Notes under the pieces: model-generated
Seen by the model: the letters and a program-made list of their open reading frames with translations, nothing else
Databases searched by the model: none
What the model was told of the DNA's origin: nothing
Shown: positions 13,122 to 16,301 of the stretch, in pieces
How positions within the stretch are numbered: the first letter of the stretch is position 1
How the letters are laid out: each line of letters starts with the position of its first letter
Translations under genes and position numbers: made by a program
From: Larkinella soli
GTDB lineage: Bacteria > Bacteroidota > Bacteroidia > Cytophagales > Spirosomataceae
Assembly (NCBI RefSeq): GCF_003703975.1
Contig: NZ_QTJY01000005.1
Coordinates: 186,001-250,000, forward strand
Length of the DNA: 64,000 nucleotides
Reading direction: 5' to 3'

Positions 13122-13682
13122 ATGAAATTTCTGATCGCCGGACTCGGCAACATCGGGCCGGAATACATACTGACCCGCCACAACGCCGGTTTTATGGTGC
13201 TGGACCGCCTGGCCGCCCAATACGGCTTCGATTTTACGATGAGCCGTCTGGCCTACACCGCCGAGTGGCGGCATAAGGGAAAAATCATCCACCTGATCAA
13301 ACCGACCACCTATATGAATCTCAGCGGCCGGGCGGTGCTGTATTACCTGAAACAGCACGATATTCCGGTCGAAAACCTGCTGGTGGTCACTGATGATAAA
13401 GACCTTCCGTTCGAAAAGATCCGGCTGCGGGCCAAAGGGTCACCCGGCGGTCATAACGGTTTGCGGAATATAGACGAGGTCCTCGGCACCCAGGAGTATG
13501 CCCGCTTGCGTTTCGGCATCGGCAGTAATTTTTCAAAAGGTCGTCAGGTTGATTTCGTACTGGGGAAGTTTCCGGATCAGGAATTTGAAAAACTTCCGGA
13601 AGTCCTTGATCGGGCGGGTGATGCGGTAATTAGTTTTTGTACTTCCGGCATTCAGCATACGATGAATTTTTTCAACCAATAA
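13122..13682 (+). CDS. pth: Peptidyl-tRNA hydrolase
   Basis: A 186-residue Pth1 enzyme that releases peptides from peptidyl-tRNA lost from ribosomes. The catalytic His is in TRHNAGF near residue 22. The conserved Asp lies in DDKDLPF, and GSPGGHNGLRNI is the tRNA-binding signature. The ATG at 13122 (MKFLIAGLGN) is the family start; the frame is open for 15 more codons upstream, but those codons lie in the likely leader. Length is normal. It is followed by an AT-rich gap holding a candidate RNA. Confidence 0.97.
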   Translation: MKFLIAGLGNIGPEYILTRHNAGFMVLDRLAAQYGFDFTMSRLAYTAEWRHKGKIIHLIKPTTYMNLSGRAVLYYLKQHDIPVENLLVVTDDKDLPFEKIRLRAKGSPGGHNGLRNIDEVLGTQEYARLRFGIGSNFSKGRQVDFVLGKFPDQEFEKLPEVLDRAGDAVISFCTSGIQHTMNFFNQ

Positions 13683-14125
13683 TAGAACATTTTGAAGAAC
13701 TTTCGATTTTGCCAGAATAAAATTTCATTTGGCAGAATTGTCCGTTTTATAGTATTTTGTTTCAATTTCATGCCGGTTCGGGGGTAATTGACGGTGGTAA
13801 CATACTATTTATCAATACGCTACTGGACTTTCGCTGCCCTTCCTTCATAAAATTGGATTTGCACTCTTGAAATTTCTTCCGATATTTGCATTGTCCTTTG
13901 AACGCAGGGCAATTGAACAAAATCAGGAATTGAACTGTTATAATTACGAAACCTGATTGCAACGCGTTACTTCCGACCGGTTTCTGCGTCTTAAGTAATG
14001 TGAAGGTTCGGAAAGCACAGGACCGGATACTCAAAAGTTCTACCGGAGTTGAGCGCAGACGAAACGGAAATCAGGAACAGTTAGTTTTTCAAATAGAAAA
14101 GGTTAAGGGTTTAGGAATAGTCAGT
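13683..14125. other. AT-rich intergenic region carrying a candidate RNA gene
   Basis: No protein gene is supported. The stretch is clearly richer in A+T than its surroundings. A weak 5-base-pair hairpin (13710-13734) follows pth. From about 13858 onward it holds a Bacteroidota-type promoter and a structured element ending in a terminator, listed separately. Confidence 0.6.
13858..13888 (+). promoter_or_regulatory. Promoter of the candidate ncRNA
   Basis: TTTG at 13858-13861 is followed after 19 bases by GATATTTG at 13881-13888, one mismatch from TAnnTTTG at the standard spacing. Transcription would begin near 13895. There is no reading frame of note downstream before the terminator at 14126. 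Confidence 0.5.
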
Positions 14126-14165
14126 ATAAAGCCTCTCGCAATGATCGGGAGGCTTTATCTTTTTT
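13895..14165 (+). ncRNA. Candidate structured non-coding RNA, about 270 nt
   Basis: The stretch between a plausible promoter and a strong terminator can fold into a closed multibranch structure. Outer helices are 13933-13939 with 14076-14082 (7 bp) and 13952-13958 with 14069-14075 (7 bp). Inside are three hairpins: 13965-13972 with 13993-14000 (8 bp, one G-U), 14005-14009 with 14020-14024 (5 bp, one G-U) and 14030-14034 with 14049-14053 (5 bp). The sequence AATCAGG occurs at both 13921-13927 and 14069-14075, and either copy can pair with 13952-13958. It does not match tmRNA, RNase P RNA or SRP RNA motifs. A 6S-like RNA or an unnamed regulator are possible. The ends and the fold are predictions. 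Confidence 0.45.
14126..14165 (+). terminator. Intrinsic terminator of the candidate ncRNA
   Basis: A perfect 10-bp stem (14126-14135 with 14149-14158) is followed by CTTTTTT. It lies about 440 bases beyond the pth stop, so it more likely ends the RNA element upstream. Confidence 0.75.
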
Positions 14166-14176
14166 ACGCTTTGAGC

Positions 14177-14217
14177 AAAAAAGCCGGAACTGCTGTGGAG
14201 CGGTTCCGGCTTTTTGT
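14177..14217 (-). terminator. metG terminator
   Basis: A 13-bp stem (14178-14190 with 14203-14215) has T-runs on both strands. It lies just beyond the metG stop, reading leftward, and can act in both directions. Confidence 0.75.
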
Positions 14218-14234
14218 TTTCGTTCGCTTCCGGC

Positions 14235-16301
14235 TCAGGAAACGGTTCCGCCGTTCCAGACGGCTTTGCCCGGTCCGATCAGCGACAGGCTGCCGTCGCG
14301 GTCTTCGGCCATCAGGATCATGCCCTGCGATTCCAGCCCCATCATCTTCCGGGGAGCCAGGTTGGCCAGAAACGTTACCTGTTTGCCGATGACCTCCTCG
14401 GGCGTGAAATGTTTGGCGATCCCGCTCAGAATCTGACGCCGGCCCGTGCCGTCGTCGACCTTCAGCTTCAGGAGTTTGTCACTTTTTGGAACCCGCTCGG
14501 CTTCGACAATGGTGCCGATCCGGATGTCCATTTTTGCAAAATCGTCGTATTGAATCTCCGGTTTGGCTTCCGGTACGGTTTTGACGGCCAGTTCGTTCAT
14601 GCGTTTGGCTTCGTGTAACTTATTGATTTGCTGGCTGATCACCTGATCCTCCAGTTTTTCGAACAGCAGGGCGGCCTCGCCCAGTGGGTGTCCTTCGGGC
14701 AGCAGGTCCCCTTTGCCGGCGTTGATCCAGCCGGTATGCGTCACGTGCAGTTTTTCCAGGTTCAGCATGGTACGCAGCCGCCCGGCCGTGAAAGGCAGGA
14801 ACGGTTCGCAGACGATGCTGAGGTTGGCCGTAATCTGGAGGGCGATGTTCAGGACCGTGTTGACCCGGAGCGGATCGGTCTTGATCACTTTCCAGGGCTC
14901 GGTTTCGGCCAGATACTTGTTCCCCAGCCGCGCCAGGTCGATCAGGTGGGTCAGCGCTTCCCGGAACCGGTACTGCTCGATGGCCTGCCCGATGCGGTCC
15001 GGGTACTGGGCCAACTCATCCAGCACCGCCTGATCGGTCTCCGTCAGGTCGTCCTTCACCGGCACCTTTCCGTCGCAGAATTTCTGCGTCAGCACCACCG
15101 CCCGGTTGACGAAGTTGCCGAAAATCCCGACCAGCTCGCTGTTGTTGCGGCCCTGAAAGTCCTTCCAGGTAAACTCGCTGTCTTTCGTCTCGGGGGCGTT
15201 GGCCGCCAGCACATAGCGCAGCACATCCTGCTTGCCCGGAAACTCTTCCAGGTACTCGTGCAGCCAGACGGCCCAGTTGCGGGAGGTGGAAATCTTGTCG
15301 CCCTCCAGGTTCATGAACTCGTTGGCCGGCACGTTGTCGGGCAGGATGTAACTGCCTTCGTGCATGAGCATGGCCGGGAAGATGATGCAGTGGAACACGA
15401 TGTTGTCCTTCCCGATGAAGTGTACCAGTTTGGTGTCTTTGTCGCGCCAGTACAGTTCCCAGTCGCGGCCCTGCTGTTCGGCCCACTCCTTGGTCATGGA
15501 GATGTACCCGATGGGGGCGTCGAACCAGACATACAGCACCTTGCCTTCGGTGTCGGGCAGCGGCACCCTGATCCCCCAGTCGAGGTCGCGGGTCATGGCG
15601 CGGGGTTTCAGACCCTCCTTCAGCCAGGACTGACACTGGCCGGCCACGTTGGACTTCCATTCCGGATGGCTGTTGACGTATTCTTCAATGCGGGGCTGCA
15701 TCCGGTCGAGGGGCAGATACCAGTTTTTGGTTTCCTTCAGCACCGGCTTCGAACCGGAGAGCATCGACCGCAGCGGCTCCTTCAGTTCCGTGGGACTCAG
15801 CGTCGAACCGCAGCGTTCGCACTGGTCGCCGTAGGCGTTTTCGTTGCCGCAAACCGGGCAGACGCCCACGATATACCGGTCGGCGAGGAACTGCTTCGCG
15901 GTTTCGTCGTAATACTGCTGGGTGACCTCCTCGGTGAAGTTCCCGCTGTTATACAGGTTCAGGAAGATTTCCTGCGAGGTCTGGTGGTGAATCGGTTTCG
16001 AGGTCCGGGAGTAGATATCGAACGAGATGCCGAATTCCTCGAACGCCTTTTTGATCTGCACGTAGTATTTATCCACGACCTGCCGGGGCGTAATTCCCTC
16101 CTTCTGGGCGCGGATGGTAATCGGTACGCCGTGTTCGTCGGTGCCGCTGACGAAGGCCACATCGCGGCCCGTCGCACGCAGGTAGCGCACATAGATGTCG
16201 GCGGGCAGGTAGCAGCCGGCAATGTGCCCGATGTGGATCGGGCCATTGGCATAAATCAGGGCCGCGGTGACGGTATACCGTTGCGGATTGTCTAATGGCA
16301 T
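14235..16301 (-). CDS. metG: Methionine--tRNA ligase
   Basis: A 688-residue class I aminoacyl-tRNA synthetase. The N-terminal HIGH motif is in [10 protein letters not shown]. The zinc knuckle is a Cys4 site in [18 protein letters not shown]. The KMSKS-like loop appears as GDKISTSRN. An anticodon-binding helical domain follows, and the last ~110 residues are an EMAP/Trbp111 tRNA-binding domain, beginning near [18 protein letters not shown]. This is the long, E. coli-like form. It diverges from the epimerase gene at 16404. Confidence 0.98.

Follow-up and report, generated by a model that had tools for sequence, protein, structure and literature searches.

The spacer downstream of pth in Larkinella soli appears to hold an RNA gene that has a promoter and a terminator of its own, a conclusion that is well supported by conservation, and the noncoding RNA of about 270 nt that would be transcribed from it is probably derived from a decayed mRNA. 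What would remain of the original gene, which was linked to pth and encoded a small protein, is its promoter, 5' leader and 3' end, the coding part having decayed. The working part would be the 3' end, a stretch with a 14-nt seed that is remotely related to FopS and is followed by a terminator tail, and it may be processed to a shorter 3' sRNA. This seed would pair with the leaders or start codons of a set of mRNAs among which those for glycan and sugar uptake (SusC-like receptors, glycosidases, permeases) stand out, and the pairing would most likely block translation.

In the window, by which we mean the whole 64,000-nt stretch of L. soli DNA that was analysed, the spacer at 13683-14234 separates pth (peptidyl-tRNA hydrolase; 13122-13682, plus strand) from metG (14235-16301, minus strand) in the ORF list. 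Both gene names were assigned by reading the protein translations, and the start of pth, the conserved upstream neighbour, was set at MKFLIAG. All parts of the RNA gene described below are on the plus strand. The Bacteroidota-type promoter consists of TTTG (13858-13861), a spacing of 19 nt and GATATTTG (13881-13888). The Bacteroidota consensus is TTTG/TAnnTTTG, with which the second box agrees in 7 of 8 letters. A reading made earlier from the letters of the window (the sequence-only reading) had noticed promoter-like boxes with the right spacing at 13858-13888, which were borne out by this fit and by their presence in all ten genus-level loci, that is, nine Larkinella and one genome of a neighbouring genus (G033). 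The conserved leader CAATTGAACAAAATCAGGA (13910-13928) aligns with eight ORF-bearing loci of other genera, and AGG (13925-13927) takes the place of the small-ORF ATG in 10 of 10 genus-level loci. The region that replaces the coding sequence (13929-14080) varies within Larkinella in the 10-sequence alignment. The conserved 3' block TTAGTTTTTCAAATAGAAAAGGTTAAGGGTTTAGGAATAGTCAGT (14081-14125), defined by the genus alignment and by a family alignment of 47 blocks, contains the 14-nt seed AAGGGTTTAGGAAT (14105-14118), whose complement was found at the start codons of other genes by site counts. An intrinsic terminator (14126-14166), a 13-bp hairpin with a T-run, ends the gene. The terminator scan detected this hairpin (14126-14158) and T-run, although with 2 terminators found vs 1.1 expected in shuffles the scan alone is little proof; the 3' end, described earlier as a perfect hairpin plus T-run, was kept in 9 of 9 Larkinella and in G033. 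A second strong hairpin at 14178-14215, flanked by an A-run and a T-run, is probably the metG terminator on the other strand. A long ORF at 14000-14392 was set aside: it crosses the terminator into the 3' end of metG, which is on the opposite strand, and with its 5' part it overlaps the variable region.

The promoter, the leader and the 3' block with its terminator (14081-14166) were kept downstream of pth in all nine Larkinella genomes examined, and pth, the TTTG-19 nt-GATATTTG promoter and the leader CAATTGAACAAAA were each present in 10 of 10 genus-level loci. In the alignment of these ten sequences, 14095-14128 and 14131-14164 were invariant and the middle was variable; the most conserved part of the RNA is the stretch preceding the terminator. 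A DNA query (13850-14175) matched 25 of 59 genomes at E 0.01, its own genome included and all nine Larkinella among them. An exact 18-mer scan of genomes gave 103 stretches, and pth was upstream of the 3' block in 84 of them. By manual sorting, the other 19 comprised 7 truncated by the stretch end, 7 second copies in family genomes and 5 chance-like matches elsewhere (L094, L099, L122, L133 and L141, all outside Spirosomataceae), the last of which were discarded. One record named Flavobacterium sp. SUN052 (L075) has a typical Spirosomataceae pth locus and groups there on the pth tree; its name is probably wrong.

A 22-mer (up to 2 mismatches) was present in 78 of 150 family genomes and absent in 72. 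We queried 19 of these 72 for pth, of which 17 yielded the locus, and all 17 loci without the exact motif had a diverged block and a terminator-like hairpin at pth, of the kinds TTTTTCATAGTTAAATAGGTTTAGAGG and TTTTCATAGTTTAATAGGTTAGGGTTGAATAG. In seven of the 17 (L348, L349, L354, L355, L358, L359 and L360), tandem block-terminator units, two to four or more, were seen by eye, and in L359 and L360 the second unit is preceded, at about 8 nt, by a promoter-like word. A script that demanded pairing found a hairpin with a T-run in all 47 homologous blocks, among which 43 different stems occur. The model built from the family alignment of these 47 blocks (R1) matched the window at 14075-14165 with 85.5 bits, the window copy being part of the model. 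R1 found one strong copy per genome in the nine Larkinella, always at the pth locus; in G006 it found a single weaker copy (E 3e-4). Among 148 genomes of the order it matched 12, namely 11 Spirosomataceae (its own included) and, weakly, one of another family, under strict filters that make misses likely.

The kinship of the locus to a coding gene is seen in other genera. Eight aligned loci have, downstream of pth, the second promoter box at the same place and the same leader, then a small ORF of about 145-158 aa, whose start looked by eye like a signal peptide, and then the 3' block. The leader of other genera, e.g. AAAATTGAACAAAACCATG, has as its Larkinella counterpart CAATTGAACAAAATCAGG, with AGG at the ATG position. 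An HMM of the small protein gave no match at E < 1 in the Larkinella region 13929-14080, and the small ORF of relatives was without a significant match in Pfam (three proteins) and without a match in NCBIfam (two proteins). Judged by these alignments, the locus looks like the remnant of the mRNA of a pth-linked small, probably secreted protein.

An ORF of at least 130 aa beginning 200-300 nt past pth was present in 61 of 115 pth loci, with some genomes counted twice. It was absent in Larkinella and G033, Telluribacter, Runella zeae, Runella MFBS21 and Spirosoma oryzae, in the examined Dyadobacter except D. bucti (L079), and in 5 of the 17 pth loci from family genomes lacking the 22-mer. For a pth tree we took 103 loci and dropped five whose pth was shorter than 150 aa (L093, L144, L151 and L161 without the ORF, L131 with it), which left 98 rows split evenly, 49 each, by presence of the ORF. 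On this tree at least 9 changes of ORF state are needed, 8 of them forced by starred branches; the tree is a quick one in which 41 of 95 inner branches are weak. One counted loss, L104, has a strong ORF fragment (89 bits) and may be an assembly error. The pth tree by itself does not separate gain from loss. Because the ORF stands at the same place in distant members, and because some Dyadobacter still show traces of it, either remnants of the start (MKANRNSFIFAL in L093, for example) or weak HMM matches in colinear order, we infer loss, and the number of changes suggests that relatives probably discarded the coding part several times but retained the 3' block. In enterobacterial 3' UTR-derived sRNAs and in bifunctional RNAs such as SgrS, a regulatory RNA is carried by a coding transcript, whereas here the coding part was apparently lost again and again and the RNA end kept. 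The family would offer a natural series in which mRNAs become noncoding RNAs and intermediate states survive in living relatives.

Rfam gave no match at the gathering cut-off in the window or in 16 related loci, and ARAGORN found 0 tmRNA genes in the window. The earlier proposal of a possibly unnamed RNA, here found conserved downstream of pth in relatives, and the failure of the sequence-only reading to match tmRNA both agree with these results. Low-score Rfam matches in the window, e.g. Thr_leader and BTnc231, fall on terminators, and FopS (RF04319) was unmatched in the stretch 13683-14234 even at E 10. At lax thresholds, RF04319 was the top-ranking Rfam family for one type II locus (26.6 bits, E 0.034); in a second such locus FopS had three matches, which scored lower than BTnc231 and a miRNA family. 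The type II blocks scored 17.7-26.6 bits against the FopS model, whose gathering cut-off is 56 bits. For GibS (RF04182), whose cut-off is 115 bits, the score was only 17.8 bits, obtained for one type II locus on the strand of the block. The reverse test used seven FopS copies, taken from plasmids of Bacteroidales and from a Bacteroides phage. R1 found 5 of 7 at 18.1-21.9 bits as the sole matches in 10 kb and missed both Prevotella copies; its best score on 100 kb of Bacteroidales plasmid control DNA was 13.2 bits. When aligned to the FopS consensus, window-type blocks had a mean z of 1.2, with 0 of 25 clear of shuffles, whereas types II and III had a mean z of 2.9, with 11 of 22 clear. With half of the sister-type blocks clear of shuffles and the window type hardly better than them, these comparisons suggest that the 3' block is, by way of its sister types, a remote relative of the Bacteroides FopS sRNAs and not a member.

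FopS of Bacteroides thetaiotaomicron is reported to be a paralogous sRNA family that represses translation of SusC-like mRNAs by pairing near the start codon, and GibS and FopS are reported to have the R1 seed region in common (PMC11697453). FopS has an unpaired stretch with the words UUUUUCAU and GGUUAA, then an intrinsic terminator; 14081-14166 of the window is alike, its single-strandedness being predicted. One FopS member is 3' UTR-derived, and the window RNA likewise would be the 3' end of a transcript. The candidate pairing of FopS at the start regions of SusC-like and glycosidase mRNAs may have its counterpart in the in silico complementarity of the window RNA. FopS was found in phage, and the genome of the window has a seed copy between phage-type genes. 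There are also differences. The window-type seed is extended and different, FopS is a short independent transcript of 65-70 nt with its own promoter whereas the promoter here is about 190 nt upstream of the block, and FopS has 12-15 copies per genome as against one R1 match at E 1 in the genome of the window. FopS RNAs also bind the RRM protein RbpB. If it holds, the kinship would mean that FopS-like control of glycan uptake exists not only in Bacteroidaceae, where it has been described, but also in the distant Spirosomataceae. In the open-access literature, no sRNA paper for Spirosoma or Cytophagales was found, nor any on Larkinella among the matches listed.

We then counted sites of the seed 14-mer. 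Allowing up to one mismatch, 112 sites were found in the nine Larkinella genomes vs 39 for a reversed control pattern, and the genome of the window has three exact copies. Contexts were read for 110 of the 112 sites, of which 8 are the pth copies and 102 are others. In 35 of these 102 the site is antisense and is followed after 0-20 nt by the ATG of an ORF of 90 aa or more, vs 1 of 102 in sense; 26 of the 102 lie inside ORFs. Among the 30 of 39 control contexts that were read, 3 were antisense at starts, 1 was sense and 23 were inside ORFs, so that the antisense class at starts differs between seed and control (35/102 vs 3/30, Fisher p 0.006). The site:control ratio of the Larkinella seed drops with distance from Larkinella: it was 96:40 across 14 further family genomes that have the motif (the pth copy accounts for 14 of the 96), 63:46 in 14 family genomes without the motif and 47:71 in 22 genomes of other families. 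Among 331 sampled Larkinella leaders, the seed complement occurred in 0 within 2 mismatches and in 4 within 3, with 3 of 150 shuffles as high. A duplex-energy scan of the 331 leaders gave a weak signal, 99 at -14 kcal/mol vs a shuffle mean of 81, with 9 of 100 shuffles as high.

For the protein classes we widened the set to 51 sites by accepting starts from -20 to 60 nt away; these represent 39 candidate targets by distinct first six residues. Pfam analysis of 30 of these candidates found SusC/TonB-type domains in 6 and no match for 5. The same 30 also included MacB, heparinase, two GntP permeases, MFS, GH39, GH106 and BNR, and one GH78-like domain below the Pfam cut-off. Many candidates had no glycan link, among them matches to AMP-binding, Cys/Met PLP enzyme, beta-lactamase-type, trypsin-like, esterase and DUF3500 families; PhyH and others were also matched. 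By an HMM, 7 of the 39 distinct candidates were SusC-like vs 4 of 333 sampled genes (p 2e-5), where the HMM was built from five target proteins and two of the seven matches (L217 and L246) are orthologues. A SusC-like gene starting MKRPLRKTLWGG recurs as a candidate in five Larkinella genomes. In the genome of the window, four leaders qualified, those of an MFS protein (L232), a GntP permease (L233) and two proteins without a Pfam match (L237 and L238). The RNA is a likely antisense regulator of such mRNAs, those of SusC-like receptors, glycosidases and permeases; repression as the direction is suggested by the example of FopS and by the position of the sites.

These counts also bear on the idea that the 3' block is a cis element, which protects or terminates its own transcript and has no action in trans. 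The block does stand directly before a terminator-like hairpin in the blocks read, and sense copies occur in the 3' UTRs of other genes, e.g. those of alanine dehydrogenase and a beta-helix protein. Such an element would leave unexplained the 35 antisense start sites vs 1 sense, the target classes and the kinship to FopS, and we consider it unlikely.

A different seed was found in the genus labelled g20, where it reads TAGGTTTAGAGGTT. This seed has 27 sites vs 8 control in five g20 genomes, and 3 sites vs 4 control in six Larkinella genomes. By manual sorting, the 27 comprise 5 pth copies, 7 more sense copies before terminators, 7 antisense sites at or just before starts and 8 others, 2 of which are sense and 0-20 nt from a start. 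The antisense start sites belong to two SusC-like genes (L379 and L383), L390, which looks like the orthologue of L383, GH65 (L382), CBM35 (L375), MacB (L384) and a gene with no family above cut-off (L389). In g20 leaders, the complement of the g20 seed was found within 4 mismatches in 17 of 278, vs a shuffle mean of 6.2 with 0 of 150 as high; in Larkinella leaders it was not enriched (7 of 331 vs a mean of 7.0). The change of seed nevertheless looks blurred, since three results speak against a clean switch: the g20 genome G027 carries 8 sites vs 0 control for the Larkinella seed, 2 of the 3 g20-seed sites in Larkinella are also antisense at start codons, and a third seed type showed no clear enrichment, with 19 sites vs 10 control in 6 genomes, at least 5 of the 19 being pth copies by position.

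The agreement between seed and leaders in g20 argues against another explanation of the start sites, namely that the leader complement is a motif of its own, e.g. a translation-enhancing or protein-bound one, so that it matches the RNA by coincidence or the RNA serves as a decoy for the protein that binds it. In its favour, leaders are G-poor, with TAAACC, AACCCT and CTATTC mildly enriched over their complements, and in several Larkinella a site adjoins a gene end and not a start. Against it, the g20 leader sites track g20's own seed, and CCTAAACC was absent from the final 30 nt of all 331 sampled leaders and so is no general leader motif. We regard this explanation as improbable.

Antisense pairing by the tail of a decayed mRNA, the reading that we favour, provides a candidate target list that is directly testable in cultured strains of Larkinella, Spirosoma and Dyadobacter. 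It may also be part of a wider history, which is quite possible and which we put forward tentatively. A whole environmental family of Bacteroidota would carry a FopS-type regulator in the tail of one mRNA; the protein would have been discarded at least 8 times, what remained under the old promoter in every case being a purely regulatory RNA, and the seed and the target leaders would have shifted together between genera. Such a joint shift would mean that the gene was retained for its RNA tail and not for its protein.

The sequence-only reading had offered a different account of the RNA, as a riboswitch-like or 6S-like RNA that acts by alternative pairing, in which CCTGATT (13952-13958) pairs with AATCAGG at 13921-13927 (a local hairpin) or at 14069-14075 (closing a multibranch fold). 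All letters that it named, both 7-mers and the complementary strand among them, are present at the positions it gave, and the minimum-energy fold of the sequence by itself includes the long-range helix of 13952-13958 with 14069-14075. Over the ten sequences, the local hairpin was mostly kept, forming in 81% of cells vs 19-43% when slid, and it showed no covariation. For the two multibranch helices the share of cells was 47.6%, vs 51.2% for the structure slid by +2, and their covariation, which 0 of 500 shuffles equalled, is of a kind that related sequences can give without structure. Conservation between relatives at the paired positions, which the earlier reading had named beforehand as its refuting check, thus holds for the local hairpin and fails for the multibranch fold. 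The region of the proposed pairs, most of which lie in 13929-14080, is the least conserved part of the RNA. The fold energy was ordinary when the terminator was left out (z -0.71; 42 of 200 shuffles were as low) and had a z of -1.71 when it was included (9 of 200). RNAalifold supported only the terminator and one 5' helix, with no pairs changed on both sides; no 6S family was listed at gathering or at E 10, and the consensus fold is without a rod and central bubble. Because the multibranch fold is unconserved, the local hairpin is without covariation and the energy is ordinary, the locus is explained without a switch, and we consider alternative pairing very unlikely indeed.

Further copies of the seed were observed outside the pth locus. 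In seven Larkinella, a seed-like site lies on the opposite strand just past the stop of a conserved gene (L214, L225, L250, L262, L266, L280 and L291). In the genome of the window, a seed copy with a hairpin (L002, C12:107628) is beside phage genes, including one for a virion structural protein (PHROG 7231), and a seed copy of Larkinella knui (L140) equals the IMG/VR contig L181. Of 13 viral-contig matches to the 18-mer, 12 share one conserved coding-looking stretch and the thirteenth is L181. A third sense copy with one mismatch stands before a terminator in eight Larkinella (L215, L231, L241, L251, L254, L270, L276 and L284), 20 nt past the stop of a beta-helix protein gene where this was read (L215 and L241). 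A second sense copy stands before a terminator in all nine Larkinella (L187, L189, L190, L191, L192, L194, L197, L211 and L213); in the genome of the window (L190, C1:421729) it is 87 nt past the alanine dehydrogenase gene. One or two words, CTTCATCAAC or CTTCATCGAC, precede this alanine dehydrogenase-linked copy, which is possibly a second 3' UTR-derived sRNA.
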